Positions 6,883 to 26,174 of a stretch of 38,371 bases of DNA are shown here, piece by piece (within the stretch, counting starts at the first letter, position 1; every line of letters starts with the position of its first letter). This DNA comes from Desulfobacteraceae bacterium (GTDB taxonomy: Bacteria > Desulfobacterota > DSM-4660 > Desulfatiglandales > Desulfatiglandaceae), in the NCBI GenBank assembly GCA_016783065.1, contig JADHXI010000011.1, positions 1 to 38,371 on the forward strand. The letters run 5' to 3'. Under the pieces are notes generated by a model, which had not been told where the DNA came from, did not search any database, and was given only the letters and a program-made list of their open reading frames with translations. The translations under genes and the position numbers were made by a program.

Positions 6883-8535
6883 CTAATATTGGATAAACAC
6901 AAAGCCATTGTCTTCATCCCGGAAGGCAGGTTTCGGAAAGATGGCTTTGTATTTGGCGTAACGGGTGCTGTCCATGATGAGTGCAATTCTGTTTTTATCT
7001 GAATTCGTGCCGACCAGGTCCCGGACCTGATCAACGGTCAAAAGACGGCGATCTTCGGGTTTCTCATAGTCCATGCCATAGGCGAGCTCACCGCTCTTTT
7101 CGAGCAGGTAGATATCATTGCGCTTCAAAAACCAACAAACAGCGGAAACCGTGTGATTGTCAGAGACCAAAATGGTCTTGGGCGAGACCCTATGAGCATT
7201 GCGCGTGATAAGATTTTTAGGCGCCCGTTCCTCCAACACCTTTGCCGGCACGACAAATTGTGAGGTGAACATAAACAGTACCGGTGCCATGCAGTAAAGG
7301 GCGATTTTCTTCCAGGTACTCTGTGCCCTTGTGGCCCAGAGCAAAAACACTCCCCAGAAAAGAAAGCCGATGAGGGCGGCTGTCCATTTCCAGGCTTCCT
7401 CATGCCCGTAAGGGTTCAAAGCAGATAGATCAAACGTTTTCCCCAAAATCAATCCTACCGCTACAATCCCGATTATTGCCGCAAAACACACCGTCACAAC
7501 GTTGAACGCCTTTTGCTTTCCTTCTCGAAAATATTTTAGAAGCCCAACGGTTATGATAATGGCAACAGGCGGCATGCACGGCAAGATATATGCGATGAGT
7601 TTGCCGCTTGAGGCAGAAAAAAACAAAAATGGGAAGACGAACCAGCATATGGCGAAACGAATCAGCGGTTCTCCGGTGACCTTTTTCCATAGGCCGCAAA
7701 CTGCGGCGGGGAGGAGGGCCATCCATGGCAATGCCCCTCCCACGACGATTGGGATGAAATACCAAAAGGGTTTTGGGTGTTGTCCCTTGCCGGGAGAAAT
7801 GAACCGATTAATGTGCTCGGTCCAAAAGAAATAATTCCAGTAATCCCCCTCTCTCAGGTGAACCATGACGGCCCATGGCAAAACAACGACAATGGCTGCC
7901 AAGACCGGCAACCAGGCCCACTTCAACAGCTCCTTCCATCGGCCCTCCCATACGGTAAAAGGCAGGATCGCTATAGCGGGAACCAGAAAAGCCAGAAATC
8001 CCTTTACAAGAAATGCGAGGCCACAGGAGGCCCCAAAAAGCGTGAGGAAAAGCCCTTTTTTTCCAGGTTCAGAAGTCATGTGGAAAAAAAAGAAGAATAC
8101 CATGGCACATGTTAGAAACATGGAAAGCCCTGTGTCCAAGGTATTGATGGTGGCAATGGCAAAGACAAGTGGAAAGGTGAGAAATGCGGAAGCTGCAACA
8201 ATCCCCGAACAATGCCCTCCTCCGTACTTACTCGCCAACAAAAAGAGCATCAATGCTGAGATACCTGCTGAAATAGCTGATAGGAAACGAATGGCAAAGG
8301 CATTTTCACCGAAAAGTGTTATGCTTATGGCGTTGAGCCAATAGCCCAGCACCGGCTTTTCAAAATAGCGCAGCCCATTGAGGTGAGGTACGATCCAATC
8401 CCCTGAAATAATCATCTCTCTGGGGACTTCAGCGTAGCGGGTCTCATCGGGGATGGTGATGGGGCGGACGCCTAATGGCACCAGGTAGATCAGCGCAAAG
8501 AGCCCAATTACTGCTGCGATGGACGATTTCCCCAT
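6883..8535 (-). CDS. arnT: ArnT, undecaprenyl phosphate-L-Ara4N transferase (GT83)
   Basis: MGKSSIAAVIGLFALIYLVPLGVRPITIPDETRYAEVPREMIISGDWIVPHLNGLRYFEKPVLGYWLNAISITLFGENAFAIRFLSA; located directly after arnD. Confidence 0.92.
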   Translation of the reverse strand: MGKSSIAAVIGLFALIYLVPLGVRPITIPDETRYAEVPREMIISGDWIVPHLNGLRYFEKPVLGYWLNAISITLFGENAFAIRFLSAISAGISALMLFLLASKYGGGHCSGIVAASAFLTFPLVFAIATINTLDTGLSMFLTCAMVFFFFFHMTSEPGKKGLFLTLFGASCGLAFLVKGFLAFLVPAIAILPFTVWEGRWKELLKWAWLPVLAAIVVVLPWAVMVHLREGDYWNYFFWTEHINRFISPGKGQHPKPFWYFIPIVVGGALPWMALLPAAVCGLWKKVTGEPLIRFAICWFVFPFLFFSASSGKLIAYILPCMPPVAIIITVGLLKYFREGKQKAFNVVTVCFAAIIGIVAVGLILGKTFDLSALNPYGHEEAWKWTAALIGFLFWGVFLLWATRAQSTWKKIALYCMAPVLFMFTSQFVVPAKVLEERAPKNLITRNAHRVSPKTILVSDNHTVSAVCWFLKRNDIYLLEKSGELAYGMDYEKPEDRRLLTVDQVRDLVGTNSDKNRIALIMDSTRYAKYKAIFPKPAFRDEDNGFVFIQY

Positions 8536-8537
8536 GA

Positions 8538-9446
8538 TCAATGTCCCGGTGTTTGGGGTTCCGCAGGTCCCTGAAAAGCGACCCACCCCTCTCGCCCCAG
8601 AATCTGCTCTCTGACAATGTTTGATGAGCCTATTCGGGAAGTATCTTTGAGGATTGTCCCCAATGGCACCATGGAAGCCCCCCGTGATCGTGTGGTTGTC
8701 ACAAAGCGTTCAAACATTTCTGTGAGGGCAATGCCTTCAACCTCGGCATGGATGGTGAGGATATTCAGCCCATCAGGCTTGAGTTGGGAAATGAGGTAGT
8801 CGTTATAGTTACAATTGTTGATCCCTTTTCGACCGATCACCTCGTCATAGGTAGGAAGGGTGACAGGAATCTGGGGTTGGGATAGTTTTCTTCCACGGAC
8901 AACGGGGTAAAATATGTCTTCCCCTCTGCAATCACTGTTAAAGGCAAATGGAAAATTCCCCTTTTCAAGGAGTACTAACTCGTTGCATTTCCACCCTGGG
9001 GAGGCCGAACAGACCGGTGTTTTGCCGATGATCTCCTTTAGGAGTTCTACGGCTTTGCCGATCTCCCCATATATGGTATGGGCGTCCATGGACCCGATAT
9101 TGGTCTGCCATGCGTGATGGTCCCACGCATGGACGCCCACCTCGTGCCCCTCGCGAGCAGCTGAAGATATTATGGGTCCTAGGGTTTTGCCTATGATGGG
9201 TCCTTGCCGGAATGTGCCCCTGAATAGTATGTCCCAGCCATATAGGCCAGGTGCCCGGGTCCTCAACATCTTCCAGAAAAAGGAGGGCCGGATCATGCGC
9301 CAGATATGCCGGCCCATGTTGTCTGGACCGACGGAAAAAAAGAAGGAGGCCTTTATGGAATAAGCGGCCAACAGCTCACACAGTTTCGGGACGCCGTATC
9401 TGGTTCCCCTGAAGCTATCCACATCGATCCTGAGGCCTATTTCCAT
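8538..9446 (-). CDS. arnD: ArnD, 4-deoxy-4-formamido-L-arabinose-phosphoundecaprenol deformylase (polysaccharide deacetylase fold)
   Basis: GLRIDVDSFRGTRYGVPKLCELLAAYSIKASFFFSVGPDNMGRHIWRM...GHEVGVHAWDHHAWQ. Confidence 0.93.
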   Translation of the reverse strand: MEIGLRIDVDSFRGTRYGVPKLCELLAAYSIKASFFFSVGPDNMGRHIWRMIRPSFFWKMLRTRAPGLYGWDILFRGTFRQGPIIGKTLGPIISSAAREGHEVGVHAWDHHAWQTNIGSMDAHTIYGEIGKAVELLKEIIGKTPVCSASPGWKCNELVLLEKGNFPFAFNSDCRGEDIFYPVVRGRKLSQPQIPVTLPTYDEVIGRKGINNCNYNDYLISQLKPDGLNILTIHAEVEGIALTEMFERFVTTTRSRGASMVPLGTILKDTSRIGSSNIVREQILGREGWVAFQGPAEPQTPGH

Positions 9447-9543
9447 ATTACTCCAAATAGGTCACCACACCTTTACGTAAGCTCTCAGCAAACCCAGGCA
9501 GCGTGGGGTTCGCCCGCAAATTCCCCTGCTATCTACCCTGGAG

Positions 9544-11544
9544 TTATTGAAAAATTGTGAACTCTTCACACGTCAGGGCCTCCCGAAGGAAGAAATCCAG
9601 GGTCTGTTCTACCGACTGTTCAAGCCCCACAACGGGCGCCCAGCCCAACAGACGCCTTGCATTGCGGATGCTGGGTTTCCTGCGATCGATGTCCTGGTAT
9701 CCGGCACCATAGTAAGTGCGGCTTTCTATCTGGCGAAATCCTGCAAATGGGGGGAAACTTGATTTTAGGGGATGCTCTTGAAACCTTGCCACCAAAAGTT
9801 CGGCCAATTCCTTGATGCTGGCCTCGTTGTCGGGATTGCCGATGTTGATTATTCGACCATTGCAGATACCGTCTCTGTTCTCAATGATCCTGTAAAGACA
9901 CTCAACTCCGTCCGAGACATCTGTGAAACAACGCCTCTGGTTTCCGGAGTCTATGAGTTGAATCGGAGTGCCCTCCACAAGGTTCAGGATCAGTTGGGTG
10001 ATTGCGCGTGAACTCCCGATGCGCGCAGAGGTGAGGCTGTCGAGCCTCGGCCCAATCCAGTTGAAGGGCCGAAAAAGCGTAAACTCCAATCCTTCCTGTT
10101 CGCCATAGGCCCAAATGACTCTGTCCAGGAGCTGTTTTGAGCAGGAATAAATCCACCGTTGCTTCCGTATGGGGCCCAACACCAAATTGGAAGAGTCTTC
10201 ATCAAACTCCTCGTCATCGCTCATTCCGTATACCTCGGAGCTGGAAGGAAAAACGATCCGTTTATTGTATTTGAGACAATACCGCACGACCCGCAGGTTT
10301 TCCTCAAAATCGAGTTCAAAGACCCGGATGGGGTTTCGAGTATATTCGATGGGTGTGGCAATGGCGACCAGGGGGATCACGATGTCGCATTTTGTGATGT
10401 GATATTCTATCCATTCGCGATGAATGGAGATATCACCTTCATCAAAATAGAACCCGGGTCTGTCCAAGAGTCGTTTAATACAGTTTGACCTGAGGTCCAT
10501 GCCGTGAACTTCATATTTACCGCTTTGGAGGAGCCGTTCGCTGAGGGCATTGCCTATGAAACCGTCAACACCCAAGATAAGGACTCTTTTCTTCCTCACC
10601 GCTTCCACCTGGCTTGTTATACAGGGTCCAAACTTCATGCCCTCAATGAGGCTGAGGTCATGGGCAAGCTGGGTCCCGCTCATATACACCCCATCCTCGG
10701 GCTGGCCGAAGTCGATCCGTACTGCTCCTTCCCCGCAGGCGATCACAAGGGGATCGGTGGTGACAATGGTTCCGGGGCTTTGAGTCCGGCCGTATTCAGG
10801 CACATCTGTAACCTTCCAGAAAAGGCATTTCCTCTCTCCCACGTGACTCAAGGCCCCTGGATATGGGTGTGAAACCGCCCTGACCAGATCCCTCACTTCC
10901 TTTGAAGTTCCAGCCCAGTCTATTTCTCCATCTTTGGGACGTCGTCCACCGTAATATGTGGCCCTGGAGTGATCTTGAGGAATACGAGACGCAGTCTCAT
11001 TTAAGATTTGAGGGAGGGTCTCGTCAAGCATCTCGAGAGATGCCCCTGTCATTTTTTCGTGAAGTGTCTTGGCTGTATCATCTTCAGAAATGATGATCGT
11101 TTTTTGGGAAACGATATCTCCGGCATCGGGCCTCGGTGTCATGTGGTGCAAGGTAACGCCTGTTTCCTTTTCACCCTTTACCAGGACCCAATTGATGGGG
11201 CATCTTCCCCGGTATCTGGGCAAGAGGGATCCGTGGAGGTTAAGGCACCCTGAAGGAGGGATCTCCAATATAGGTGCTCTCACGATATTACGGTAGTAAA
11301 AAGAGAAGATGATATCGGGTCCAAGTTCTTTTATCTTATGAACCCACATGGGATGGTTGATATCATCGGGCGCATAGACTGGAATATTACATGATGCGGC
11401 AAGCTCTGCGACAGAATCAAACCAGATGGTCTCCTGCGGATCGTCCTTGTGCGTGAACACAGCGCTGATTTCAAATCCGTGCCGCAACAATGCCTCTATG
11501 CCGACACAACCGATATTGTGATAGGCCAAGACTATGGTTTTCAT
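9544..11544 (-). CDS. arnA: ArnA, bifunctional UDP-Ara4N formyltransferase / UDP-GlcA C4-decarboxylase
   Basis: 666 aa; formyltransferase motif [20 protein letters not shown], then dehydrogenase [19 protein letters not shown]...FPSSSEVYG. Confidence 0.95.
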
Positions 11545-11558
11545 TCGGGTATCCTCAA

Positions 11559-12617
11559 CTAACTACTTTCTTCTTGATCGCTTCTTCCCACAATACGTTC
11601 CACAAAAAATCGGGGCCGTGCCCTGACATCATGGTAGATGCGGCCGATATACTCCCCCAGGAGACCCAGCCCCAGGAATTGTGCGCCTATAAAGATAAAA
11701 AGGATGGCAAAGAGGGTGAACACTCCCTCTGCTGCCCATTCAGGGCCATAAATCAATCTCATTACGAAGAGAAAAATCCCGAAGCCTATTCCAAGGACAG
11801 ATATGATTCCTCCAAGCACACTCAGGAGGCGTACCGGAAAGGTCGTCATACTGGTCAAAAGGTCAAACTGCAGGTTAATCAACTTCCACAGCCCATATCT
11901 AGAATCGCCAGAGGAACGTTCTTCATGGCGTACATCGATTTCGGTCGTGTTTCGAGCAAAGGTGTTGGCGAGTATGGGGATAAAGGTGCTGCGTTCGTTA
12001 CATTCAAGCATGGCCGCTACTATATGGCGGCGATAGGCCCTCAGCATGCAGCCGTAGTCATGCATCTGTACTCCCGTGGATTTCTGCACGGCTTTATTGA
12101 CCATAGTGGAAGCGACCCTTCGGAAAAGGCTGTCGTGTCTGGGTACCCTGACGCTGCCAACCACATCAAATCCTTCCTCTGCCTTCCGGATCAGTCTCGG
12201 AATCTCCTCGGGCGGGTTCTGGAGGTCGGCATCCAGGGTAACGATAATGTCACCTCTCGACTCCCCAAAGCCGGCCATAACCGCTGCATGCTGCCCGTAA
12301 TTTCTGTTCAAGAATATCCCGATTACCCGGTCAGGGCTCCCTCCTGCAGCATGGGTGATGATCTCTCGAGATCTGTCAGTGCTACCGTCATCAACAAGGA
12401 TGATCTCGTATGCATTGCCAAGGGTGGCACAGGCATCCAAACAACGCCGTATGAACTCCTCCAGATTTTGCCCTTCATTGTATACGGGAATGACCACCGA
12501 TATGAGGGATTTGGGAATTCGGAATTCGGAATTCGGGTTTTCGATTGCGGATCTCGGATCTCTGTCCTCTGTCCTCTGACCTCTGATTTCTGACCTCTGA
12601 TCTTTTTCGGGTGTCAT
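11559..12617 (-). CDS. arnC: ArnC, undecaprenyl-phosphate 4-deoxy-4-formamido-L-arabinose transferase, with a repeat-encoded N-terminal extension
   Basis: [24 protein letters not shown]...[22 protein letters not shown]...[11 protein letters not shown]; start codon overlaps the arnB stop (ATGA). Confidence 0.93.
12517..12605. repeat. Heptameric tandem repeats (GAATTCG-type and CTCTGAC-type) within the 5' end of arnC
   Basis: gggaattcggaattcggaattcggg ... ctctgtcctctgtcctctgacctctgatttctgacctctgat. Confidence 0.85.
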
Positions 12618-13792
12618 CGTCTGGATCTTTCCCTTTGGGCCGACCTTGTCAGCACCTTCTTTATTACCTCTATTACGTCATCCACATCCTCGGGGGTCAT
12701 ATCAGGGAACAGGGGGAGGGAACATATACGATCGGAATTCCATTCTGTATTGGGCAGCATACCGTAGCGGGTGCCCATTGATTCCGTGTAATACTTCTGC
12801 AAGTGGACGGCACGGAAATGGAGCCCAGTGCCAATATTTCTCTTTTTGACCTGGTGCATAAAATCATCTCGACCGAGGCCAGTCCTATCTATATCCAGTC
12901 GCACAATGAATAGATGCCAGGCGTGCCTGGTGGTATGAGGTGGATCGGAAAGGGGGATTATTTCGTCGATCTCAGAGAGGCGGTCTCGGTATTTCATTGC
13001 CAGTTCGGCCCTCTTTTTGTTCAATTCATTGATACGGCCCAGCTGACTGAGTCCAAGAGCGGCCGCGATGTCTGTCATGTTGTATTTGTACCCCGGCTCC
13101 AGGACCTGGGCCTGGGGAGAACGCCCTTGTGTCTGCCGGTCATAGGCATCCACGCCAAGCCCATGAAATTTCAATCTCTTAATATGCTCAAGGAGGTCCT
13201 CATCATCAGAGCAGAACATGCCCCCTTCACCCGTGGTGATGTTTTTTATGGGGTGAAAGGAGAAGATGGAGCTACCCTCTTTGCCTACAGGTCGGCCCAA
13301 ATAGTGCGTACCCAGGGCGTGGGCTGTGTCTTCAATCACCGGGACCCCCTTTTGATCGGCCATTTTACGGATGGGGTCCATATGGACCGAGGCCCCGGCA
13401 AAGTGCACGGGAACAATCAGCCTTGTCTTGGAGGAAAGGCATTTTTCCACAGCATCAGAGGAGACCATCAAGGTGTCCTTCTCGATATCAACAAAGACCG
13501 GAGTGGCCCCAACCAGTACGATATGGTTCACGGTGGAGACCCAGGTCATGGAAGGCGTAATGACTTCGTCCCCTGGTCCGATCCCGAGTGCCTTGAGGAC
13601 CAGGTGCATTCCAGCCGTGGCCGAAGAAAGTGCAACGGCTCCGCCACAGCCGATGTACCGACAGAATTCTTGTTCAAACCTGGCAGTGTTTTGTCCGGCA
13701 GTGATCCATCCTGACCGAAGGACGCGGCCGACAGCCGCGATATCCTCCTCTGTTATGGATGGACGTGAAAACGGCAGGAATTGATTTCTCAC
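12614..13792 (-). CDS. arnB: ArnB, UDP-4-keto-pentose aminotransferase (DegT/DnrJ/EryC1 family)
   Basis: GTG start at 13792: [43 protein letters not shown]...[17 protein letters not shown]; the longer ORF to 13993 reads into antisense sequence of the upstream gene. Confidence 0.92.
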
Positions 13793-14163
13793 TAGGCGCT
13801 CCGAGTAATAAGATAGACTCCCACGCAGATTACAAGGATCCCGGCCCACCGAACAGGCCCCAAGGTCTCGCCGAAGAAGATTTGGCCTGCAAAGGCCGTC
13901 GCGATGTAACCGACGCTCAGGAGAGGGTAGGCATAGCTCACATCCACCCTGGACAGGGCCATGAGCCAGACAATTACGCTGATTACATAACAAAGCAGCC
14001 CTGCCAGCACAAAGGGGCTGAGGGCCACCTTCGTCCCGATGGGCAATATGTTTTCGAAGGAAAAGGCAAAGTGTCCTACAGTGCGCATGCCCTGTTTGAG
14101 TGAAAGTTGGGCAAATGCGTTTAAAAACACTCCCAAAAGGATCAGGGGCAGGTATTGATTCAT
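13792..14163 (-). CDS. SMR/EamA-type small multidrug-resistance-like protein, probable ArnE/ArnF-like flippase subunit
   Basis: 123 aa with four hydrophobic segments; QLSLKQGMRTVG...SYAYPLLSVGYIATAFAGQIFFGETLGPVRWAGILVICVGVYLI; overlaps arnB start. Confidence 0.85.
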   Translation of the reverse strand: MNQYLPLILLGVFLNAFAQLSLKQGMRTVGHFAFSFENILPIGTKVALSPFVLAGLLCYVISVIVWLMALSRVDVSYAYPLLSVGYIATAFAGQIFFGETLGPVRWAGILVICVGVYLITRSA

Positions 14164-15785: not shown

Positions 15786-17459
15786 ATGGTTCTATCGTCT
15801 TTGAAAACGGTTATGGGTCGCCATGAGGCGGCACTTATTTTTTTGTTGGGTGTTTTACTGCTGCTGCCCCGTATCTGGTGCGAGACGAGTATTACCGGTC
15901 AGGACGAATACTGGCTCTCTTTCCGTACCCCCATGGAGACCCTTGAGCGGGGAGAATGGTTTACCCCGTGGGTGAATGGCGAGCCCCGCCTCAAAAAACC
16001 GCCCCTGCTTTACTGGGCCATCCTGTTGACCTACAAGCTTTTTGGAATCAACCTCTTTGCAGCGCGAATTTGGGGCGTGCTATCCGGGGCCGGGCTCGCC
16101 ATGTCCTCTTGCCTCTTGTACAGGATCCTATTTAAGAAAAGCGGAATTCTCGCGGGATTGATCACCCTGGCTACGATTTCGGTGGCCATTGACGGGCGCA
16201 GAGCAATGTTAGATCTTCCTCTCGCCTTTCTTACTTCTATGGCCATATACTTTGCCATCAGATGGGGAACATCGGGCCGGCAGGGCTGGGTGTTGGTATC
16301 GGCCATTTCTCTGGGCCTCTCCTTTCTGGTAAAGGGGCCAGTAGGGATCGTTGTCTTTGCAGTGGGTGCTCTCGGTGCGCTGATTGTCCTTGAAAAGTGG
16401 TCATTCGTCTTATTGCGCTGGTCACAGATTGCCTTGGCTTCAGCCCTGTTGCTGGCCATCTGTCTCCCATGGCCATTGATAATGGCCTATCTTTGGCCGA
16501 ATTTTTTTGAAATTGTAGATGGGGAAATTGCCGCCCGACACCTTGGGACCGTTCATTTTCGCTCCCCTTTTTCGATCCTGGGCGGCGCCTTGGGGCTTAT
16601 TTTCCCGTGGTCACTCATAATGATCGCGGCCTTGGTACATTCTTTGTGCCATGCAAGGGAAAGGATAGTTCGCAAAGAACTGTGGCTTACGGTGTGGTTT
16701 TTGGGCTGTGTGGCCCCTTTCTTTTTTATGGAGGCATTTGCGCGCTATATGACTCCGGTTGTCCCCGCGGCGTGTGTATTGTGTGCCAGCTGGTTAGAAC
16801 GCCATCAAGGTAAATGGAAAGGGGCGTTTCTGGGGATATCCGTTTCCTTGATGGCGGTGATCTCAATCCCTTTTTGTCTTTTTCTTATTTGGTTTGGTCA
16901 TGGGGTCTTAATCGGGGTATTATGTCTCATTTTTGTTGGCCTGATGCTCTGGGTCACCTTTGCCATGGGTGATGTGCGCCTGGTTGCCCTGTCCGTGGCA
17001 CTGTTACTTGCCTTGATCATGGGTGGTTTGTACCCTTCTCTCGGAATAAATGCGATGCCGGCAGGCCTTGATAAGATCGTTGGGTCTTCCCCGGTAGCTT
17101 CCTACAACGGTTCTCAGCCATCCATGCTCTCGATCCGGCTGAAACGGAGTGCGGTCAGGATCCGTTCCTTTGATAAGAACGATAGACGCAGGCTCAAAGA
17201 TTTTCAGGGCTTTGTGTTTATGGGAGAACGGGCTGCCAAAGGTTTCGAGACCCTTTGTAGGGAGTTGGGGATTCATTTTCAAAAGGCGGGTCAATTCAAG
17301 AGCTTTTATTCGCGAGAGGCGTGGATACGATTTGTCCGTGAAGATGCCACACGTGATGACTGGGAACGGGCCCTAAAGACCCACTCTTTGGAAGGTCTCA
17401 AACCGACGATTCATTACTATCGGGTAACTCAAAAAAGAAACCTTCTCTCAACCAAATAA
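15786..17459 (+). CDS. Second ArnT-like phospholipid carrier-dependent glycosyltransferase
   Basis: ITGQDEYWLSFRTPMETLERGEWFTPWVNGEPRLKKPPLLYWAILLTYKLFGINLFAARIWGVLSG; multi-TM. Confidence 0.88.
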   Translation: MVLSSLKTVMGRHEAALIFLLGVLLLLPRIWCETSITGQDEYWLSFRTPMETLERGEWFTPWVNGEPRLKKPPLLYWAILLTYKLFGINLFAARIWGVLSGAGLAMSSCLLYRILFKKSGILAGLITLATISVAIDGRRAMLDLPLAFLTSMAIYFAIRWGTSGRQGWVLVSAISLGLSFLVKGPVGIVVFAVGALGALIVLEKWSFVLLRWSQIALASALLLAICLPWPLIMAYLWPNFFEIVDGEIAARHLGTVHFRSPFSILGGALGLIFPWSLIMIAALVHSLCHARERIVRKELWLTVWFLGCVAPFFFMEAFARYMTPVVPAACVLCASWLERHQGKWKGAFLGISVSLMAVISIPFCLFLIWFGHGVLIGVLCLIFVGLMLWVTFAMGDVRLVALSVALLLALIMGGLYPSLGINAMPAGLDKIVGSSPVASYNGSQPSMLSIRLKRSAVRIRSFDKNDRRRLKDFQGFVFMGERAAKGFETLCRELGIHFQKAGQFKSFYSREAWIRFVREDATRDDWERALKTHSLEGLKPTIHYYRVTQKRNLLSTK

Positions 17460-17493
17460 ATTTCGATCGTTTACAGCAGGGTTCCAGGCAAAA

Positions 17494-18660
17494 ATGAATA
17501 AACGGCTTATCCTAATACTATCGCTTGTCACGGTTATGATTTACGCCTGGTCCGCGGGGCAAGGGCTGACGACCGACGGTCAGAAAGATCCCAAATTTGC
17601 TGTCGATCAACCAATCCCTGGGGGGGATAAGTCTCCGCCATATCTGGTCGAGGAATTCATCAGTCCGGAGTTGAGAACAGGGATGGTCCATACGGCCTCA
17701 ATTTGCCGGCTGAACGACGACCGGCTTGCCGCCGCCTGGTACGGCGGGAGCAAAGAAGGGGCAAGTGACACAGCCATATACCTTTCTATCCGTAATCCCG
17801 GGGTGCCCCCGTCCTGGACCAGACCGCGGGTTGTGGTGAATCAGGAGACCGCTTCAAAAGAACTCCAACGGTTTGTGAAAAAGGTGGGGAACGCCATCAT
17901 CTTTGCGGATCGTGAAGACCGTCTGTGGTTGATTTACGTCACAATCACCGTGGGCGGATGGTCCGGCAGCTCTCTTAATGTAAAGATCTCAACGGATGAC
18001 GGCGCAAACTGGACACCAAGCCAAAGACTGACACTCAGCCCATTTTTGAACCTCAGCGAACTGGTCAGAAACAACCCTGTGCCCCTCGAAGACGGCGGTT
18101 TTGTCATACCCATATATCATGAGTTTCTAGGGAAGTTTCCGGAACTGCTATGGATCTCTGTGGGAGCGAACAATCAAAAAGTCTTTTTTAGAAAATCCAG
18201 AATGGACGGTGGACGTACGTTTATTCAGCCCAGTGTGGTTGCGTATGGCCCCGGTGCCGCGACGGCCTTTTACAGGGATTGTTCAGATGAAAGAAACGTG
18301 GGGGTGGCACTGACAAAAGACGCAGGCGCCACATGGTCAAGGCCCCGGCGGATTGATCTCCCAAATCCCGATTCTGCCCTGAACGCGCTCCGTCTTTCAG
18401 ATGGCAATATTCTATTGGTCTTTAATGACAGCAAACATTACCGTGAAAACCTCCGGTTTGCCATCTCAGGAGACAATGGGCTCAATTGGACGCGAATCGC
18501 AAGGCTCGAAGATACGAAAGGTCAGGAATTTTCATACCCCTATCTGATTCACGGCCAAGGGAGACGGATTCATCTGGTCTACACGTGGCGCAGGAAACGG
18601 ATCAAACATGTGGAATTCAATGAGGCCTGGATCAGGGAACAAATAAGAAAGGCATCATAA
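17494..18660 (+). CDS. Secreted sialidase-like (BNR/Asp-box) protein
   Basis: Signal peptide-like N terminus; four Asp-box-like motifs STDDGANWT, SRMDGGRTF, TKDAGATWS, SGDNGLNWT; FISPELRTGMVHTASICRLNDDRLAAAWYGGSKEG. Confidence 0.85.
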   Translation: MNKRLILILSLVTVMIYAWSAGQGLTTDGQKDPKFAVDQPIPGGDKSPPYLVEEFISPELRTGMVHTASICRLNDDRLAAAWYGGSKEGASDTAIYLSIRNPGVPPSWTRPRVVVNQETASKELQRFVKKVGNAIIFADREDRLWLIYVTITVGGWSGSSLNVKISTDDGANWTPSQRLTLSPFLNLSELVRNNPVPLEDGGFVIPIYHEFLGKFPELLWISVGANNQKVFFRKSRMDGGRTFIQPSVVAYGPGAATAFYRDCSDERNVGVALTKDAGATWSRPRRIDLPNPDSALNALRLSDGNILLVFNDSKHYRENLRFAISGDNGLNWTRIARLEDTKGQEFSYPYLIHGQGRRIHLVYTWRRKRIKHVEFNEAWIREQIRKAS

Positions 18661-19322
18661 TGACGGCGTTTGTTTTCTCCTTTTTCTTTCCATTCCTTCT
18701 CGCGATGGCCTTGGTTCAATGGCTGATGCGGATTCTTTGGAAAAGGCCTTATGGGTGGAGGCCCACCCTTATGCTGGGTATGGTTTCGGCATTAATAGTG
18801 ATCATCCCATTTAAGGGCATTCCACTGGGCCGGTGGCTGATCAGCCTAAACGCCAATTTCAGCATTCCGCTCGTTGCCATATTCTTGAGCAAGGTCTTGG
18901 AAGGAGGACTCGGAATTCGACTGTTGGACAGGAAGGCCCTCTTTGGTACCAGGGTATTTGCCCTGACGGCCGGTGCAGCACTCTATCCAATGGCGTTGGG
19001 GTTGGGCAGCGTTGATCCATATGGCCTTGGCTGGGGGTTCTCATGGCTCTTTGCGGTTCTATTGGCCACTACGCTTGGCCTGCTTTTTATCAGGAACCGT
19101 TTGGGAATAATACTCATGGGGTGCGTCTTGTGCCATAACCTGCATCTGTTGGAATCGCAAAACTTATGGGATTATCTGGTTGACCCATTTCTTGTCCTTA
19201 TCTCGGGAGGTGTCCTTGGGTGTCGGGTCATGAGAAAGCTAACAGGGGAGCATGGGAAGAAAACCTCCCGGCAATCTCCTGAACTTGTTGAGAAGTTGCA
19301 GGCTTCGGAACTTTGTGGTTGA
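18660..19322 (+). CDS. Multi-TM membrane protein of unknown function
   Basis: 220 aa, strongly hydrophobic; start overlaps the stop codon of the sialidase-like gene. Confidence 0.75.
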   Translation: MTAFVFSFFFPFLLAMALVQWLMRILWKRPYGWRPTLMLGMVSALIVIIPFKGIPLGRWLISLNANFSIPLVAIFLSKVLEGGLGIRLLDRKALFGTRVFALTAGAALYPMALGLGSVDPYGLGWGFSWLFAVLLATTLGLLFIRNRLGIILMGCVLCHNLHLLESQNLWDYLVDPFLVLISGGVLGCRVMRKLTGEHGKKTSRQSPELVEKLQASELCG

Positions 19323-19431
19323 TATTACACGCATTTTTGGTATCATTTCCCCAGGTGATGACGTGGGTTGCAGGAGGCCTCTGGCGCACATCCACGTGGT
19401 AGACAAGAGGGACCTAGGGAAGGGACGTAAT

Positions 19432-20022
19432 ATGCCCCGTAACGCTCCGGCGTGGATTCATGATGTATTCAACAACAAGACCATCCGATTGGTCCTGTCA
19501 AAACTCCGGTACGTTCTCTTTCTGGGTGTCTTTATACTATTTATCCCGCACATAAGGCCTTCATGGTTTTGGATCGGATTTATTGTCACCCTGTTGGGGG
19601 AGTTGATTCAGGGGTGGTGCTTTGCTTCTCTTGAAAAAAACAGGGTGCTCGCAAATAAGGGGCTCTACGGGTTGACGCGAAACCCCATGTATCTGGGCCG
19701 TTTTTTTGTATTGCTGGGGTTTTTGCTTCTTACCGGAAATGTATGGATAGTCCTTGCTTTTGCGGTGCTCTATTATTTCTATATGGTCAATCGTGTCAAA
19801 CGGGAAGAAAATAAGCTGCGGGTCTTTTTCGGGGAGGAATATAAAGGCTATTGCCGGGATGTAAACCGCTTTGTTCCCTCCTTCAAAGGGAATGATCGGG
19901 GATCGTTGTGGGTCTTCAAGTGGGACGTATTTGTGGACAATAACGGTCACTGGAATTTTTCGGCAGTGCTTTTTTGTTACGCCATATTCTATTTTTTCAC
20001 TTTCCTGTATCCCAAGATTTGA
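19432..20022 (+). CDS. Isoprenylcysteine carboxyl methyltransferase (ICMT/PEMT)-like membrane methyltransferase
   Basis: LEKNRVLANKGLYGLTRNPMYLGRFFVLLGFLLLTGN...KREENKLRVFFGEEYKGYCRDVNRFVP. Confidence 0.85.
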   Translation: MPRNAPAWIHDVFNNKTIRLVLSKLRYVLFLGVFILFIPHIRPSWFWIGFIVTLLGELIQGWCFASLEKNRVLANKGLYGLTRNPMYLGRFFVLLGFLLLTGNVWIVLAFAVLYYFYMVNRVKREENKLRVFFGEEYKGYCRDVNRFVPSFKGNDRGSLWVFKWDVFVDNNGHWNFSAVLFCYAIFYFFTFLYPKI

Positions 20023-20044
20023 GCAGCCAGAAGGAGACGTCATC

Positions 20045-21001
20045 GTGAGCCCACCCGTGCCTCCCGAGATTTCCATTGTCGTGCCAATCTTTAATGAGGC
20101 CCCGAATCTACAGCCGTTGATTGAGGGCTTATTGGGTGTGATGCGCCCCCTGGGGCGGCCTTTTGAAGTGATCCTGGTGGACGACGGAAGCATTGATGAC
20201 ACCCACAGGGCCCTCAGCGCCATGCAACCGGAGAACCCGGAAATGCGGGCCGTATTCCTGAGACGCAACTTCGGTCAGGGTGCTGCCATGACCGCGGGTT
20301 TTGACTTTGCCAAAGGCGAGATAGTTGTCACCATGGACGGGGACCTCCAGAGTGATCCCGGGGATATCCCCCACCTCATAGCCAAACTGGAGGAAGGATA
20401 TGACCTGGTCAATGGCTGGCGCCGGGACCGCAAAGATCCATTTTTCTCAAGACGCCTCCCCTCGATGCTGGCCAATCGGCTGATAGGGATGGCCACAGGA
20501 GTCAAGCTTCACGATTACGGGTGTACCCTCAAGGCCTATCGCGCTGATCTGGCCGGACAGCTCCTTCTCTATGGCGAGCTACACCGTTTTATTCCAGCCC
20601 TGGCCAGCTTTTATGGCGCGAAGATCGCAGAGGTGGCCGTGAACCATCGTCCTCGCGAGATGGGAAAAAGCAAATATGGAATCAGCCGCACCTACAGAGT
20701 CCTCCTGGATCTACTCCTGATCCTGTTCTTCCAGAAGTTTGCCACCCGGCCCCTTCAGTTCTTCGGGCTGAGTGGAGGGATCCTCTTTTCTGTCGGTCTC
20801 GTTATTGAACTTTATCTGACATGGGTAAAACTCTGGAGAGGGGAGGATATCGGTGGGCGACCCCTATTGCTCCTGGGCGTCCTGCTCATCATCACAGGTA
20901 TCGTTCTGGCCGGTATAGGTCTGTTGGCCGAACTGGTGGTCCGGAACTATTATGAATCATCAGCCAAGAGGATCTACGCTGTGCGCGAGGTCTTGGAGTG
21001 A
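20045..21001 (+). CDS. ArnC/DPM1-like polyprenyl-phosphate glycosyltransferase (second copy)
   Basis: ISIVVPIFNEAPNLQPLIEGLL...GEIVVTMDGDLQSDPGDIPHLIAKLEEGYDLVNGWRRDRKDPFFSRRLPSMLANRLI...DYGCTLKAYR plus two C-terminal TM segments; likely GTG start at 20045. Confidence 0.9.
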   Translation: MSPPVPPEISIVVPIFNEAPNLQPLIEGLLGVMRPLGRPFEVILVDDGSIDDTHRALSAMQPENPEMRAVFLRRNFGQGAAMTAGFDFAKGEIVVTMDGDLQSDPGDIPHLIAKLEEGYDLVNGWRRDRKDPFFSRRLPSMLANRLIGMATGVKLHDYGCTLKAYRADLAGQLLLYGELHRFIPALASFYGAKIAEVAVNHRPREMGKSKYGISRTYRVLLDLLLILFFQKFATRPLQFFGLSGGILFSVGLVIELYLTWVKLWRGEDIGGRPLLLLGVLLIITGIVLAGIGLLAELVVRNYYESSAKRIYAVREVLE

Positions 21002-21930
21002 AGGTGAATGTTCCCCGGTGGGTGAGGTGGCTCGTAAGGGCAGGCGTCAGCGCAGGGCTTCTTTGGTGGCTCTTTTCACGATACGATCTTAAAGGGATCC
21101 TGGCCACCTTTGAAGGTCTGTCCATTTCAGTCTGGCTGCTCGCCTCGCTGATATACCTCCTCTGTCAGGTTATGAGCAGTATCCGTTGGTGGGTGCTGTC
21201 GAACACCCTTGCATTCCCGGGAAGATGGCCTACCTATCTGGGGTTTTATTTTGTCGGGATGTATTTCAACCTCTTCCTGCCTACAGGGATAGGGGGAGAT
21301 GTTTTTAAGGCACACTTCCTCTCAAGAGATGAGGGAAAAAGACTGCTGGCCGCGTGGAGCGTTGTGGGAGATCGCCTATTCGGCGTCACCTCAATGCTCC
21401 TCATGGGTGCGGGGGTGGTGGTGGTTGAACCGGACCTCCTCCCCGAGCCATTCGTCATTTTTCTCTCCTTCAGCGGTTTGATGATTTTGTGCGGTCTTGT
21501 GGGGCTTCCTTTTTTCCACAAGGCCCTTGGGCGTTTGTGGCCCGGGGTTTCCCGGTATCTAAACGACATGCTTGGCATCTGGCGAAGACCAAGGAGAATG
21601 CTTGTGATATTGGCCCTATCCTTCTCTCTTCAGGCCCTGGGTATGGGGGCTGTTGCCCTGCTGGGGGCGGGAATAGGCATCCAAATCCCTCTGGTATTCT
21701 ATTTTGCCAGCCTTCCGATGATAAGCCTGATAATGATGATTCCCATCAGCTTCAGCGGTATCGGGGTCAGAGAGGGGGCCTTTGTCTATTTCTTGGGGCT
21801 CAAGGGGATTGATCCGGAAAGCGCCTTTAGTCTCGGGCTTCTCTTTTTTTCCGTGCAGGTGGCCGCAAGTCTCGTGGGTGGGCTGGCATATGCCTTTGGC
21901 GTTCACCGTAGATCGATAAATGGTCCTTGA
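20998..21930 (+). CDS. UPF0104 / lysylphosphatidylglycerol synthase TM-region flippase-like protein
   Basis: YLLCQVMSSIRWWVLSNTL...FVGMYFNLFLPTGIGGDVFKAHFLSR...MISLIMMIPISFSGIGVREGAFVYFL. Confidence 0.88.
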   Translation: MKVNVPRWVRWLVRAGVSAGLLWWLFSRYDLKGILATFEGLSISVWLLASLIYLLCQVMSSIRWWVLSNTLAFPGRWPTYLGFYFVGMYFNLFLPTGIGGDVFKAHFLSRDEGKRLLAAWSVVGDRLFGVTSMLLMGAGVVVVEPDLLPEPFVIFLSFSGLMILCGLVGLPFFHKALGRLWPGVSRYLNDMLGIWRRPRRMLVILALSFSLQALGMGAVALLGAGIGIQIPLVFYFASLPMISLIMMIPISFSGIGVREGAFVYFLGLKGIDPESAFSLGLLFFSVQVAASLVGGLAYAFGVHRRSINGP

Positions 21931-23081
21931 CTCAGCGCTTTATGACCCTTTACAAATACATTCTTAACGAGATATGGCCCACCTTTTTTGCCGGCCTGTT
22001 TGTCATGGTCTTTATCATGGTGGCATCGCAAATGCTCTCTATCACCGAGTTGATCATAACGCGGGGGGTCGGGGTGGCTCAGGTCATGGGGATTGTCATC
22101 TATCTGTTGCCCGACATCGTGGCATTTGCCCTGCCAGCCGTGAGTCTCATTGCCGTTGTGGTGGCCTTTCTGCGTTTGTCCGCCGACAGTGAAATTATTG
22201 CCTTAAAGTCATGCGGTGTCAGTCTTTATCAGATGCTTCGACCGGTGATTTTGCTTTCCTTCCTGGGGTTCTTGTTTGCTCTCGTGATGGGGGTCTATGT
22301 GACGCCGTGGGGTAACCGATCTTTTAAAGACCTTGTCTTCCGGATAGCTGAATCAGAGGCCAATGTGGGAATCAAGGAGCGTGTTTTCTCCGAGCCCTTC
22401 GACAACGTCGTGTTCTATGTCAACAAGTACTCGAGCCGGGAGAAGTTACTGAAGGATGTTTTTGTGGTAGACAGACGGGATAAGGGTGTCACAAACACCA
22501 TCGTGGCCGAAGAAGGGCGAATTATGTTACATCCCGACGAAAGGATCATTACCCTCCGTTTTTTGCGGGGCACCATTTTCCTGGTGGAGAAGGACTTGAA
22601 GTCAGCCAGAACCATCGGGTTTAAGGTCTACGACCTGAATATCAGCCTCAAGGATATCATGGCCGGGCTCGCCTCCAGAAGGAAAAAACCGCACGAATTG
22701 TCGGTTGGAGAACTGCTCGAACAAATGGAGGAGGTCCCCGAGAGTGACTCGAGATATAATGAGATTGTGAGAGAACTCTTTGAGAAGGGTTCTATGCCCG
22801 TTGCGGTGTTTCTGATGGGTGTCATCGGCGTGCCCCTGGGTGCACGGTTAAGGGCACGGGGGCGCTCAGCCGGAATCGGAGTGAGCCTGGCAATATTCTC
22901 TATCTTCTACCTGTCCCTGGCTGGCGTGAGAAGTATCTGTTCGGCCGGAATCCTCTCGCCGGCAATAGGGGTGTGGATTCCGGACTTCTTTTTGCTGCTC
23001 TCATGCATCTATCTCTTGAGACGCACGGCAGAGGAACGGCCCATCAATTTCTTGGCAGGGCTGAGACAAAAGGCGGCTTAA
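21927..23081 (+). CDS. lptF: LptF, LPS export permease
   Basis: MTLYKYILNEIWPTFFAGLFVMVFIMVASQML...SADSEIIALKSCGVSLYQML; start overlaps upstream stop or begins at 21942. Confidence 0.92.
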   Translation: MTQRFMTLYKYILNEIWPTFFAGLFVMVFIMVASQMLSITELIITRGVGVAQVMGIVIYLLPDIVAFALPAVSLIAVVVAFLRLSADSEIIALKSCGVSLYQMLRPVILLSFLGFLFALVMGVYVTPWGNRSFKDLVFRIAESEANVGIKERVFSEPFDNVVFYVNKYSSREKLLKDVFVVDRRDKGVTNTIVAEEGRIMLHPDERIITLRFLRGTIFLVEKDLKSARTIGFKVYDLNISLKDIMAGLASRRKKPHELSVGELLEQMEEVPESDSRYNEIVRELFEKGSMPVAVFLMGVIGVPLGARLRARGRSAGIGVSLAIFSIFYLSLAGVRSICSAGILSPAIGVWIPDFFLLLSCIYLLRRTAEERPINFLAGLRQKAA

Positions 23082-23096
23082 CTGGAAACCGAATAG

Positions 23097-24173
23097 ATGG
23101 GAACATTGGCAAAATATTTTTCAAGGGAATTCCTCAAACTTTTTGTCCTCTTGGAATTTGTTTTTCTCACCATGTATCTCCTCATCCAGTTTATCCTCTC
23201 GCTTGATGATTTTGTCGAGGCCAATGCACCGAGCACCCTCATGGTGGTCTATCTCTTCTATAATACTCCCCTGATTGTTGTTCAGCTTGTACCGGTGGCG
23301 ACGCTTATCTCTGTCATCGTGATGTTCTGTATTATGGAGAAGAACAACGAGATCACAGCCATGAAATCGTGCGGATTGAGCGCTTTCAGGTTTTCCCTGC
23401 CGATTATTATTCTCTCCGTACTGATTTCCATTGGCGTATTCCTTGTCTCCGAACTGGTTGTTCCGTACTCTATTTCCAAAGCGAACGAGATATGGCAGGT
23501 GAGACTAAATAAGGGCACGAAGACAGGGTTTTATGGTCAAGATCATATCTGGTACCGCGGATCGGGTTCCGTCTATCGCATCAGAAATTTCGATTCCAAG
23601 AGAGAGATTATGGAGGACCTGACGCTTTATTTTTTTGATGATTCTTTTGGAGTCATAAAAAAGATAGACGCAAAACGGGGCCTATGGACCGGGAACAAAT
23701 GGGAGATCCGCGAGGGATTTATGCAAGAGATCACGACGGATGGGGGGTACGATCTGAAAAGATTTGACAAGATATATCTGGAACTCCCTGAAAGGCCTGA
23801 TGCCTTTACCAGGTCCCCCAAGAAGCCAGAAGAGATGAGCTATTGGCAATTGAAGCGATATGCAAAAAGGATTCGGGAAGAAGGTTATGATGCCACGGAA
23901 TATACGGTGGATATGAATGTCAAGCTGGCCTATCCCCTGATTAGTGTCATACTGGTTCTTATCGCGATTCCCATCGCCTTGGGGACAAAAAAAGGGGGTA
24001 CGCCGCTGGCCATATCTTTTGGGGTTGTTGTCTGTTTTTTCTATTTGATAAGCCTTGGTATTTCACGATCCTTCGGTCTCTCGGGCCTTTTGCCACCGGG
24101 GCTGTCAGCGTGGTCGGCGAACCTCATATTTTTCCTGTTTGGTATCTATTTGATGATGCGGGTGGAGACCTAA
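23097..24173 (+). CDS. lptG: LptG, LPS export permease
   Basis: LAKYFSREFLKLFVLLEFVFLTMYLLIQFI...EKNNEITAMKSCGLSAFRF; immediately follows lptF. Confidence 0.92.
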   Translation: MGTLAKYFSREFLKLFVLLEFVFLTMYLLIQFILSLDDFVEANAPSTLMVVYLFYNTPLIVVQLVPVATLISVIVMFCIMEKNNEITAMKSCGLSAFRFSLPIIILSVLISIGVFLVSELVVPYSISKANEIWQVRLNKGTKTGFYGQDHIWYRGSGSVYRIRNFDSKREIMEDLTLYFFDDSFGVIKKIDAKRGLWTGNKWEIREGFMQEITTDGGYDLKRFDKIYLELPERPDAFTRSPKKPEEMSYWQLKRYAKRIREEGYDATEYTVDMNVKLAYPLISVILVLIAIPIALGTKKGGTPLAISFGVVVCFFYLISLGISRSFGLSGLLPPGLSAWSANLIFFLFGIYLMMRVET

Positions 24174-24335: not shown

Positions 24336-26174
24336 ATGAAGCAGATGCCTCTCTATTATTTCTCTATTGTCTTTGGGGGGAGTTTTGCCCTCTCTGTCAT
24401 TTTGACCCCTCTCGTGAGAAGGCTCGCAGTAAAAACAGGTCAGGTTGCCGCGCCTAAGGATAGCCGCTGGCACAAAAGAGATACTGCGGTATTGGGGGGT
24501 GTGAGCATCTTTTGTGCCATGATGACGGTGTGGGTGGCGGCGGCCATGTACTCTGGATGGATCGTATATGGCCGCCCCTATCTTCCCATGATCGTGTGTG
24601 CCGCAGCAGTGTTTGCGCTGGGTTTGGCAGACGATATCTTTAGTATTGCCCCACAGCACAAACTTGCGGGCCAGATTGTCATCACGTCCATCTTGATGTT
24701 TTTCGGGTTCCGTCTGGGGTGGACCGATTCTGCAACAATAAATCTATTCCTGTCAATCCTGTGGGTCGTGGGGATTACCAATGCCTTCAACCTGCTTGAC
24801 AATATGGATGGCCTCTCAGGCGGAGTCGCCTTTATAGCAGGCGCCTTTCTATTCCTCTTTCTCTATCTCAATCCGGTCCCTTATGCGTTTTCAGGGCCCG
24901 TACTATTGATGAGTGCGGCGTACCTTGGGGCGATTCTGGGTTTTCTCCTATATAATTTCAACCCGGCTTCCATCTTTATGGGGGATGCAGGGAGCCTTTT
25001 CATCGGTTTTATGCTGGCCTCCCTGACCATGATCGGTAGCCCGGCGCAGGCCATGGAGCGGAGTTATGTGCATCTGCTTTCAGTCATTGCGATTCCAATT
25101 CTGCTCCTTTTTATCCCCATTCTGGATACGGGCTTTGTAAGCCTCATGAGAAAGCTGTTTCGTCGACGTATTTCCCAAGGGGGACGGGATCATTCTTCCC
25201 ATCGATTGGTGGCCATTGGCTTTTCAGAGAGAAAGGCGGTCCTGGTCTTATATGCCTTCTCCCTCGTGTCGGGGCTCATAGCACTCTCAATCACACGGTT
25301 CGGCATTGGAGTAAGCCTGGTAATCATTGTGCTGTATCTTCTTTTCATCCTGTTCTTTTGGATCTATCTGGCAAAGGTCAAGGTCTACCCGGAGGCCTCT
25401 GTCGTATCGGGTGATGGAACAGGCGTATTCACCCCTATCCTTATTGAGATTACTAACAGGAGAAGGCTTTTTGAGGTCCTGTTGGATCTGGTACTGATCT
25501 CAGTGGCCTACTATACAGCCTACCTCTTGCGGTTTGAAGGGACCCTCGGAGGCAACTTCGATTTTTTCTTAAAGTCTCTGCCCATCTTGATCGCTTGCCA
25601 GGTCCTGGCCTTTTTTGTCTTTGACGTCTACCGGGGGGTGTGGGAAAGAACGAGCCTCACAGACCTCATCGGATATATTAAGGCCATTACTGTAGGGACC
25701 ATAATGCCCATGCTTATCCTCCTTTTTGCCTACCGTTTTTACAGCTTTTCCCGGGCAGTATTTGTCATATACTGGGGTCTCATGCTCATACTGGTATCTT
25801 TGTCAAGGCTGTCGTTTCGGCTTTTGGAGGAAGGAGTGAGAAGGGCAAACCCGGAGGGAAATCCGGTTCTTATTTATGGCGCAGGTCTCGGCGGCCAAAT
25901 GACCCTCAGGGAGATAGAGACCAACAGGAAACTGGGACTGACGGTTGTGGGATTTATGGACGACAATCCCAACATAAAGAGAAAGAAAATCAGGGGGTAT
26001 CCTGTCTTTGGGGGAGAGGAAGATCTGGAGGAAATCATCAACAAATATCTCGTCAAGAACATTATTGTTTCTTTCAAAGAAAATAGTGGGGAGAAAAAAA
26101 GGGGTCTCACGGCCCGTTGTAAAAAAATGGGCGTGGACGTAGACGTCAAGGAGATGAAACTGATTATCAGTTAG
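24336..26174 (+). CDS. WecA/MraY-type polyprenyl-phosphate sugar-1-phosphate transferase fused to a CapD-like N-terminal membrane plus nucleotide-binding region
   Basis: LGLADDIFSIAPQHKLAGQ, NAFNLLDNMDGLSGG, FMGDAGSLFIGFML (WecA family); then VLLDLVLISVAYYTAYLLRFEG and NPVLIYGAGLGGQMTLREIE...VVGFMDDNPNIKRKKIRGYPVFGGEEDL (CapD/PglF N-terminal half). Confidence 0.9.
   Translation: MKQMPLYYFSIVFGGSFALSVILTPLVRRLAVKTGQVAAPKDSRWHKRDTAVLGGVSIFCAMMTVWVAAAMYSGWIVYGRPYLPMIVCAAAVFALGLADDIFSIAPQHKLAGQIVITSILMFFGFRLGWTDSATINLFLSILWVVGITNAFNLLDNMDGLSGGVAFIAGAFLFLFLYLNPVPYAFSGPVLLMSAAYLGAILGFLLYNFNPASIFMGDAGSLFIGFMLASLTMIGSPAQAMERSYVHLLSVIAIPILLLFIPILDTGFVSLMRKLFRRRISQGGRDHSSHRLVAIGFSERKAVLVLYAFSLVSGLIALSITRFGIGVSLVIIVLYLLFILFFWIYLAKVKVYPEASVVSGDGTGVFTPILIEITNRRRLFEVLLDLVLISVAYYTAYLLRFEGTLGGNFDFFLKSLPILIACQVLAFFVFDVYRGVWERTSLTDLIGYIKAITVGTIMPMLILLFAYRFYSFSRAVFVIYWGLMLILVSLSRLSFRLLEEGVRRANPEGNPVLIYGAGLGGQMTLREIETNRKLGLTVVGFMDDNPNIKRKKIRGYPVFGGEEDLEEIINKYLVKNIIVSFKENSGEKKRGLTARCKKMGVDVDVKEMKLIIS

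Follow-up and report, generated by a model that had tools for sequence, protein, structure and literature searches.

Homologues of a two-component Kdo hydrolase and a linked ArnT-like glycosyltransferase upstream of lptFG in a Desulfobacteraceae bacterium

The DNA considered here, hereafter the window, is a stretch of 38,371 nucleotides from a Desulfobacteraceae bacterium (contig JADHXI010000011.1), part of a 3.69-Mb assembly that is 72% complete. The question it raises is what a sialidase-like protein and a membrane protein of 220 residues are doing in a gene cluster that ends with lptF and lptG, the genes for the lipopolysaccharide (LPS) exporter permeases. The original prediction, made from the letters alone, placed eight genes of this cluster in an undescribed glycan-modification operon. 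All eight co-directional plus-strand open reading frames are indeed present at exactly the positions claimed, 15786–24173, and the overlaps at 18660, 20998/21001 and 21927/21930 are reproduced to the base; Pfam backs every gene label except that of the 220-residue membrane protein. The core of the cluster is not new, given that, as judged by sequence comparison, the sialidase-like protein and the membrane protein are homologues of KdoH1 and KdoH2, the two components of a described hydrolase of 3-deoxy-D-manno-oct-2-ulosonic acid (Kdo). The pair and the gene upstream of it are the following.

15786..17459, plus strand: ArnT2, PMT/ArnT-like inner-membrane glycosyltransferase (Pfam PMT_2/PMT)
17494..18660, plus strand: KdoH1, sialidase-like protein with one N-terminal membrane helix and a beta-propeller (BNR_2, E 3e-70)
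18660..19322, plus strand: KdoH2, seven-helix membrane subunit of 220 residues

The occurrence of a single-pass sialidase-like protein beside a seven-helix one led us to suspect the two-component Kdo hydrolase KdoH1/KdoH2 and then to test this identity. In Francisella novicida, FTN_0493 is mtn, FTN_0494 encodes a membrane protein and FTN_0495 a BNR/Asp-box protein (PMC2928790); FTN_0494 and FTN_0495 are kdoH2 and kdoH1, respectively (PMC4688374; names and loci also in PMC12342981), and FTN_0496 is slt, which runs in the opposite direction and measures 1,977 bp (PMC6587636). The gammaproteobacterial genome G759 (31% GC, 2.14 Mb) shows the gene order mtn/KdoH2/KdoH1/slt, with the pair located at L116:5819-7009 and 7002-7607 near mtn and beside an oppositely oriented slt gene with a length of exactly 1,977 bases. 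Another contig of this genome (L184) carries an ArnT-like and a GT2 gene in facing orientation, the pattern expected of flmK/flmF2. Because both arrangements fit Francisella, G759 very probably represents this genus and its pair very probably is KdoH1/KdoH2. The profile of KdoH1 from the window's family retrieves the G759 KdoH1 with an E value of 9e-71, and the corresponding KdoH2 profile yields a weak match (E 2e-5 to 1.5e-4) that is co-located with KdoH1. The Francisella pair retains KdoH1 residues Y348, E210, R261 and H66 and KdoH2 residues N168, W170, Y172 and D175. Furthermore, the genome of the window encodes a Kdo transferase of the WaaA family (PF04413, E 4e-56), so that Kdo is expected in the LPS of this organism.

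Thus, the pairs of the window and of F. novicida are alike in that the genes are adjacent and in the same order, both subunits are homologous, KdoH1 combines a sialidase fold with one N-terminal membrane helix, and KdoH2 is a multi-helix protein. They differ in that the F. novicida pair comes from another bacterial group, KdoH2 is strongly diverged, and the genes lie between slt and mtn rather than between ArnT2 and the lptFG block. The Helicobacter pylori proteins HP0579/HP0580 resemble the window pair by description only, as a two-protein Kdo hydrolase of lipid A remodelling that is tied to polymyxin resistance.

KdoH2 was searched on its own in 118 relatives and, as a peptide pattern, in GTDB species genomes, and its profile was run against an even sample of 395 genomes from the phylum and against 369 Gammaproteobacteria. 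In every confident match with enough contig to judge (40 of 40 loci from 39 genomes of Desulfobacterota, Gamma- and Betaproteobacteria), KdoH1 is encoded directly upstream of KdoH2, in most loci with a 4-base overlap, and a separate search with KdoH1 recovered an almost identical set of genomes. The spread of the pair is patchy, with 8 credible occurrences in the phylum sample of 395 genomes and about 13 among the 369 Gammaproteobacteria. Two further KdoH2 matches were rejected as chance: that in G169 is weak and lies within a frame of 1029 residues, and that in G542 spans 42 residues with KdoH1 absent nearby. The gammaproteobacterium G470 (L114:5493-7465) encodes a highly diverged KdoH1 that lacks E210, R261, Y348 and N133, next to a KdoH2 that retains the NLWDY..DP motif; this pair is possibly inactive or re-purposed. 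In two Desulfobacterota families (L117:290-2296 and L120), KdoH2 is followed by a sulfatase-superfamily protein of 668–671 residues (PF00884 in L117, with a weak lipoteichoic acid synthase-like match), which may decorate lipid A as well, as a phosphoethanolamine-type transferase.

Is ArnT2 tied to this pair or simply next to it? The best PDB match of ArnT2 is ArnT (5ezm, E 6e-13), and it falls short of the NCBIfam ArnT equivalog cut-off (49.6 bits vs 567). PMT-type proteins encoded directly 5' of KdoH1 form a clade of their own (support 97/99), with members from the window's family, two other Desulfobacterota families and Gammaproteobacteria including Achromatium. ArnT and Francisella FlmK are likewise PMT-type membrane enzymes, thought to put polyprenyl-phosphate sugars on lipid A, but the ArnT2 clade is distinct both from the ArnT of the adjoining arn operon and from the Francisella FlmK-like protein; the latter groups with ArnT and was ruled out as an ArnT2 orthologue. 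The scores of the ArnT2 profile in the 118 relatives are bimodal, with orthologues at 764–895 bits, apart from two that are cut by contig ends and score lower, and the rest at most at about 149 bits. KdoH is found in 13 of the 14 ArnT2-positive genomes among these relatives (Fisher p 1.5e-11 by genome), and in the window's family the identical 8 of 23 genera carry KdoH and ArnT2 and 15 carry neither (Fisher p 2e-6), both p-values being only partly corrected for shared ancestry. In G025, the lone ArnT2-positive genome without KdoH, the contig ends about 170 bases 5' of ArnC2, at the site that the pair occupies in relatives. Given that ArnT2 and KdoH reside on separate contigs in seven genomes, this co-occurrence does not reflect mere hitch-hiking. 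In two gammaproteobacterial KdoH loci (L107, L113), ArnT2 is replaced by an ArnT-type gene nearer to true ArnT than to ArnT2; it lies a few genes off, as does a gene resembling ArnC.

An alternative is that ArnT2, ArnC2 and KdoH have nothing to do with each other and, as housekeeping genes of the envelope, only happen to share a transcript upstream of lptFG. Its appraisal involves the rest of the locus.

19319..19346, plus strand: possible internal promoter (10/12 consensus match, TG before the second hexamer; weak evidence)
19432..20022, plus strand: ICMT/PEMT-like membrane methyltransferase (Pfam PEMT/ICMT; start inferred from the homologue in L044)
20018..21001, plus strand: ArnC2, similar to GT2 polyprenyl-phosphate sugar synthases (Glycos_transf_2, E 2e-31; start uncertain, about 20018–20060)
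20998..21930, plus strand: UPF0104/LPG_synthase_TM flippase-like membrane protein (PF03706, E 1e-38; TIGR00374 above cut-off)
21927..23081, plus strand: LptF, LPS exporter permease (TIGR04407, 240.7 bits, above the cut-off of 230)
23097..24173, plus strand: LptG, LPS exporter permease (TIGR04408, 266.5 bits, above the cut-off of 240)

The presence of ArnC2 in genomes without KdoH (G019, G113), the lack of linkage between ArnT2 and KdoH in seven relatives, and the 109 bases that separate KdoH2 from the ICMT-like gene and accommodate the promoter-like site are all compatible with this alternative. Because relatives keep a gap of 50–424 bases between KdoH2 and ArnC2, two transcription units, ArnT2-KdoH1-KdoH2 and the downstream genes, are possible. 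Nevertheless, ArnT2 and KdoH are found together even in genomes where they are not linked, their gene order is common to Gammaproteobacteria and distant Desulfobacterota, and in L118, from a different family, nearly the same gene set is reassembled in a different order (lptF-lptG-GT2-ArnT2-KdoH1-KdoH2), which makes a chance association of ArnT2 with KdoH unlikely. Adjacency, co-occurrence and the separate ArnT2 clade uphold, for KdoH1, KdoH2 and ArnT2, the proposal of a unit that is concerned with LPS and separate from the adjoining arn operon.

For ArnC2 and UPF0104 alone, the explanation by unrelated genes may hold. ArnC2 shares a GT2 domain and C-terminal membrane helices with ArnC and other GT2 polyprenyl-phosphate sugar synthases, but it is only 36% identical to the true ArnC of the adjoining operon and scores far below the NCBIfam ArnC equivalog cut-off (211 bits vs 529). 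In the window's family, most loci have ArnC2 and UPF0104 downstream of KdoH2, and 9 of the compared loci have UPF0104 beside ArnC2; L059 and L060 have a different GT2 gene at the place of ArnC2. Given its presence in KdoH-free genomes, the original inclusion of ArnC2 in the set is not sustained.

The next question is which bond the pair cuts. The AlphaFold model of KdoH1 consists of a helix (residues 3–25), corresponding to one predicted membrane segment, and a beta-propeller (predicted local distance difference test, pLDDT, 85.7). In a Foldseek search, this model matches fungal KDNases and GH33 sialidases with an E value of 3e-15 and a TM-score of about 0.70. The substrates of sialidases and KDNases are sugars chemically akin to Kdo. 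A PDB search with the single KdoH1 sequence gave no match, and a profile was needed to reach sialidases. The active site of GH33 sialidases comprises an Arg triad, a Tyr nucleophile with Glu, and an Asp acid/base. In KdoH1, R261, R317, E210 and Y348 are invariant in an alignment of 23 sequences, and both Arg residues and Y348 align with positions in these sialidases; the N-terminal Arg region failed to align, and D92 is N in the Francisella protein. KdoH1 resembles GH33 sialidases/KDNases in its six-bladed propeller and in some Arg and Tyr positions, but their sequence similarity is weak, and KdoH1 of the window has a membrane anchor, a constant partner and a predicted Kdo substrate. KdoH2, with seven membrane segments (AlphaFold model, pLDDT 85.3), has no family in Pfam or NCBIfam and no PDB match by profile or by fold; its conserved motifs are PmALG.g..DPY..G and ESxNLWDYxxDP.

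Since the fold of KdoH1 also matches true sialidases and KDNases, and two Arg and one Tyr align with GH33 sialidases, KdoH1 could be a periplasmic hydrolase of another ulosonic acid (sialic, Kdn, legionaminic or pseudaminic acid) or of the sugar that ArnT2 attaches, with KdoH2 as a mere anchor or transporter. However, in the tree, all 39 paired KdoH1 proteins, that of Francisella included, are split by a 99/91 branch from ten unpaired BNR_2 proteins. The outgroup consists of plasmid KdoH1 homologues with 25–32% identity, of which the annotated ones have no partner gene. An LPS substrate is likewise in keeping with the linkage to ArnT-like genes and lptFG and with the invariable presence of the partner gene, so that a different ulosonic acid or an ArnT2-added sugar is quite improbable. 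A true sialidase for host glycans was rejected on the basis of the tree and the gene context. As to the proposal that the glycosidase acts on a sugar made by ArnC2, the homology points to cleavage of Kdo as the most likely activity instead.

The notion that all eight genes serve a single glycan pathway, with the glycosidase trimming an ArnC2-derived sugar and LptFG acting as its own exporters, is suggested by the overlapping genes but is highly improbable, given that LptF and LptG are, by a genome search, the sole copies in the 72%-complete assembly, the ICMT-like gene is nearly restricted to the window's genus, and many genomes have KdoH without ArnC2 and without ArnT2. The sole-copy status of lptF and lptG marks them as the housekeeping exporter, not as members of the pathway as had been proposed, and speaks against a dedicated second Lpt exporter. 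The only orthologue of the ICMT-like protein is in a contig of the same genus (L044, 81% identity), and its weak match to LmtA, the lipid A 1-phosphate methyltransferase, lies well below the NCBIfam cut-off (52.5 bits vs 325) and is no more than a lead; apart from a distant analogue in L060, it is confined to this genus and thus drops out of the proposed set. That analogue, an unrelated ICMT-like methyltransferase directly 5' of ArnT2 (L060:6374-6928), hints that methylation may recur in KdoH loci. The complete eight-gene order was found in the window only, and its sub-blocks are widely conserved, so that the expected conservation of the neighbourhood holds for a core of two to five genes.

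Two neighbours of the locus deserve mention. The minus-strand genes at 6883–13993 are arnB, arnC, arnA, arnD and arnT by Pfam domain. Downstream, 24336–26174 encodes a 612-residue fusion of a WecA/MraY-like sugar-1-phosphate transferase (PF00953) with CoA_binding_3, which is found with 66–72% identity directly 3' of lptF in many relatives. In nine of these (L050 to L055, L057, L058 and L063), lptF is followed directly by the fusion gene and there is no lptG nearby, the rest of these genomes not having been searched; in the window, lptG lies between the two.

Taken together, these observations are best compatible with the probable action of KdoH1/KdoH2 as a Kdo hydrolase and of ArnT2 as a sugar transferase on the same LPS precursor, followed by export through Lpt. 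Several findings weigh against this interpretation. The match to the Francisella KdoH2 has about 21 bits and biased composition and leans mainly on position and on the N-W-x-Y-x-x-D-P motif; otherwise invariant KdoH1 positions are altered in Francisella (D92 to N, R317 to K); G759 is called Francisella from synteny, not from a name; and, to our knowledge, enzyme activity is known for Francisella and Helicobacter members only. As for ArnT2, part of its co-occurrence with KdoH may reflect shared ancestry, many gammaproteobacterial KdoH loci are without it, and it was not detected in seven KdoH-positive relatives; most of these genomes are incomplete, and in one the contig breaks at that site, but G038 reaches 98% completeness.

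In the predicted pathway, Kdo2-lipid A (or a core form) would first be flipped across the inner membrane. KdoH1, anchored in that membrane and facing the periplasm, with KdoH2 as its obligatory seven-helix partner, would cut one Kdo residue on the periplasmic face; as Zhao and Raetz reportedly found in 2010, neither Kdo hydrolase protein works alone. After or in parallel to Kdo removal, ArnT2 would take a sugar from its polyprenyl-phosphate carrier and attach it to the same LPS precursor, with ArnC2 and UPF0104 as likely, though not exclusive, suppliers of the donor, and LptF/LptG would carry out the remodelled LPS. We infer Kdo hydrolysis in this organism from homology; the donor and acceptor of ArnT2 and the order of the steps are part of the same model. 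The periplasmic location agrees with that of the characterised Kdo hydrolases (PMC12856342), and the H. pylori enzyme acts at one step of an ordered lipid A remodelling (PMC12342981). Loss of the Francisella or Helicobacter enzyme alters lipid A modification and polymyxin resistance (PMC5371381, PMC12342981, PMC12856342); since its loss in H. pylori causes strong polymyxin sensitivity (PMC5371381), a role in envelope protection is suggested by analogy.

A more tentative extension, which we consider possible but doubtful, is a Kdo exchange, whereby, once the precursor has been flipped, KdoH would strip the outer Kdo from the inner core and ArnT2 would fill the position with a different lipid-carried sugar. 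If true, this would be a route of periplasmic LPS core biosynthesis not known from ArnT/FlmK systems.

The enzyme is already known; new, as far as the literature searched shows, are its spread in Desulfobacterota and Gammaproteobacteria, although the original KdoH papers may list some of the homologues, and its tie to a distinct clade of glycosyltransferases. Many “sialidase family protein” annotations in LPS loci would need renaming, and KdoH2, for all its lack of Pfam, NCBIfam and PDB matches, now has testable conserved motifs. The ArnT2 clade offers a testable candidate for the step that would follow Kdo removal, so that a trim-then-decorate pathway becomes testable in a sulfate-reducer-type bacterium. 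With the pair present in free-living bacteria of this type and in many Gammaproteobacteria, Kdo trimming would be no peculiarity of pathogens.

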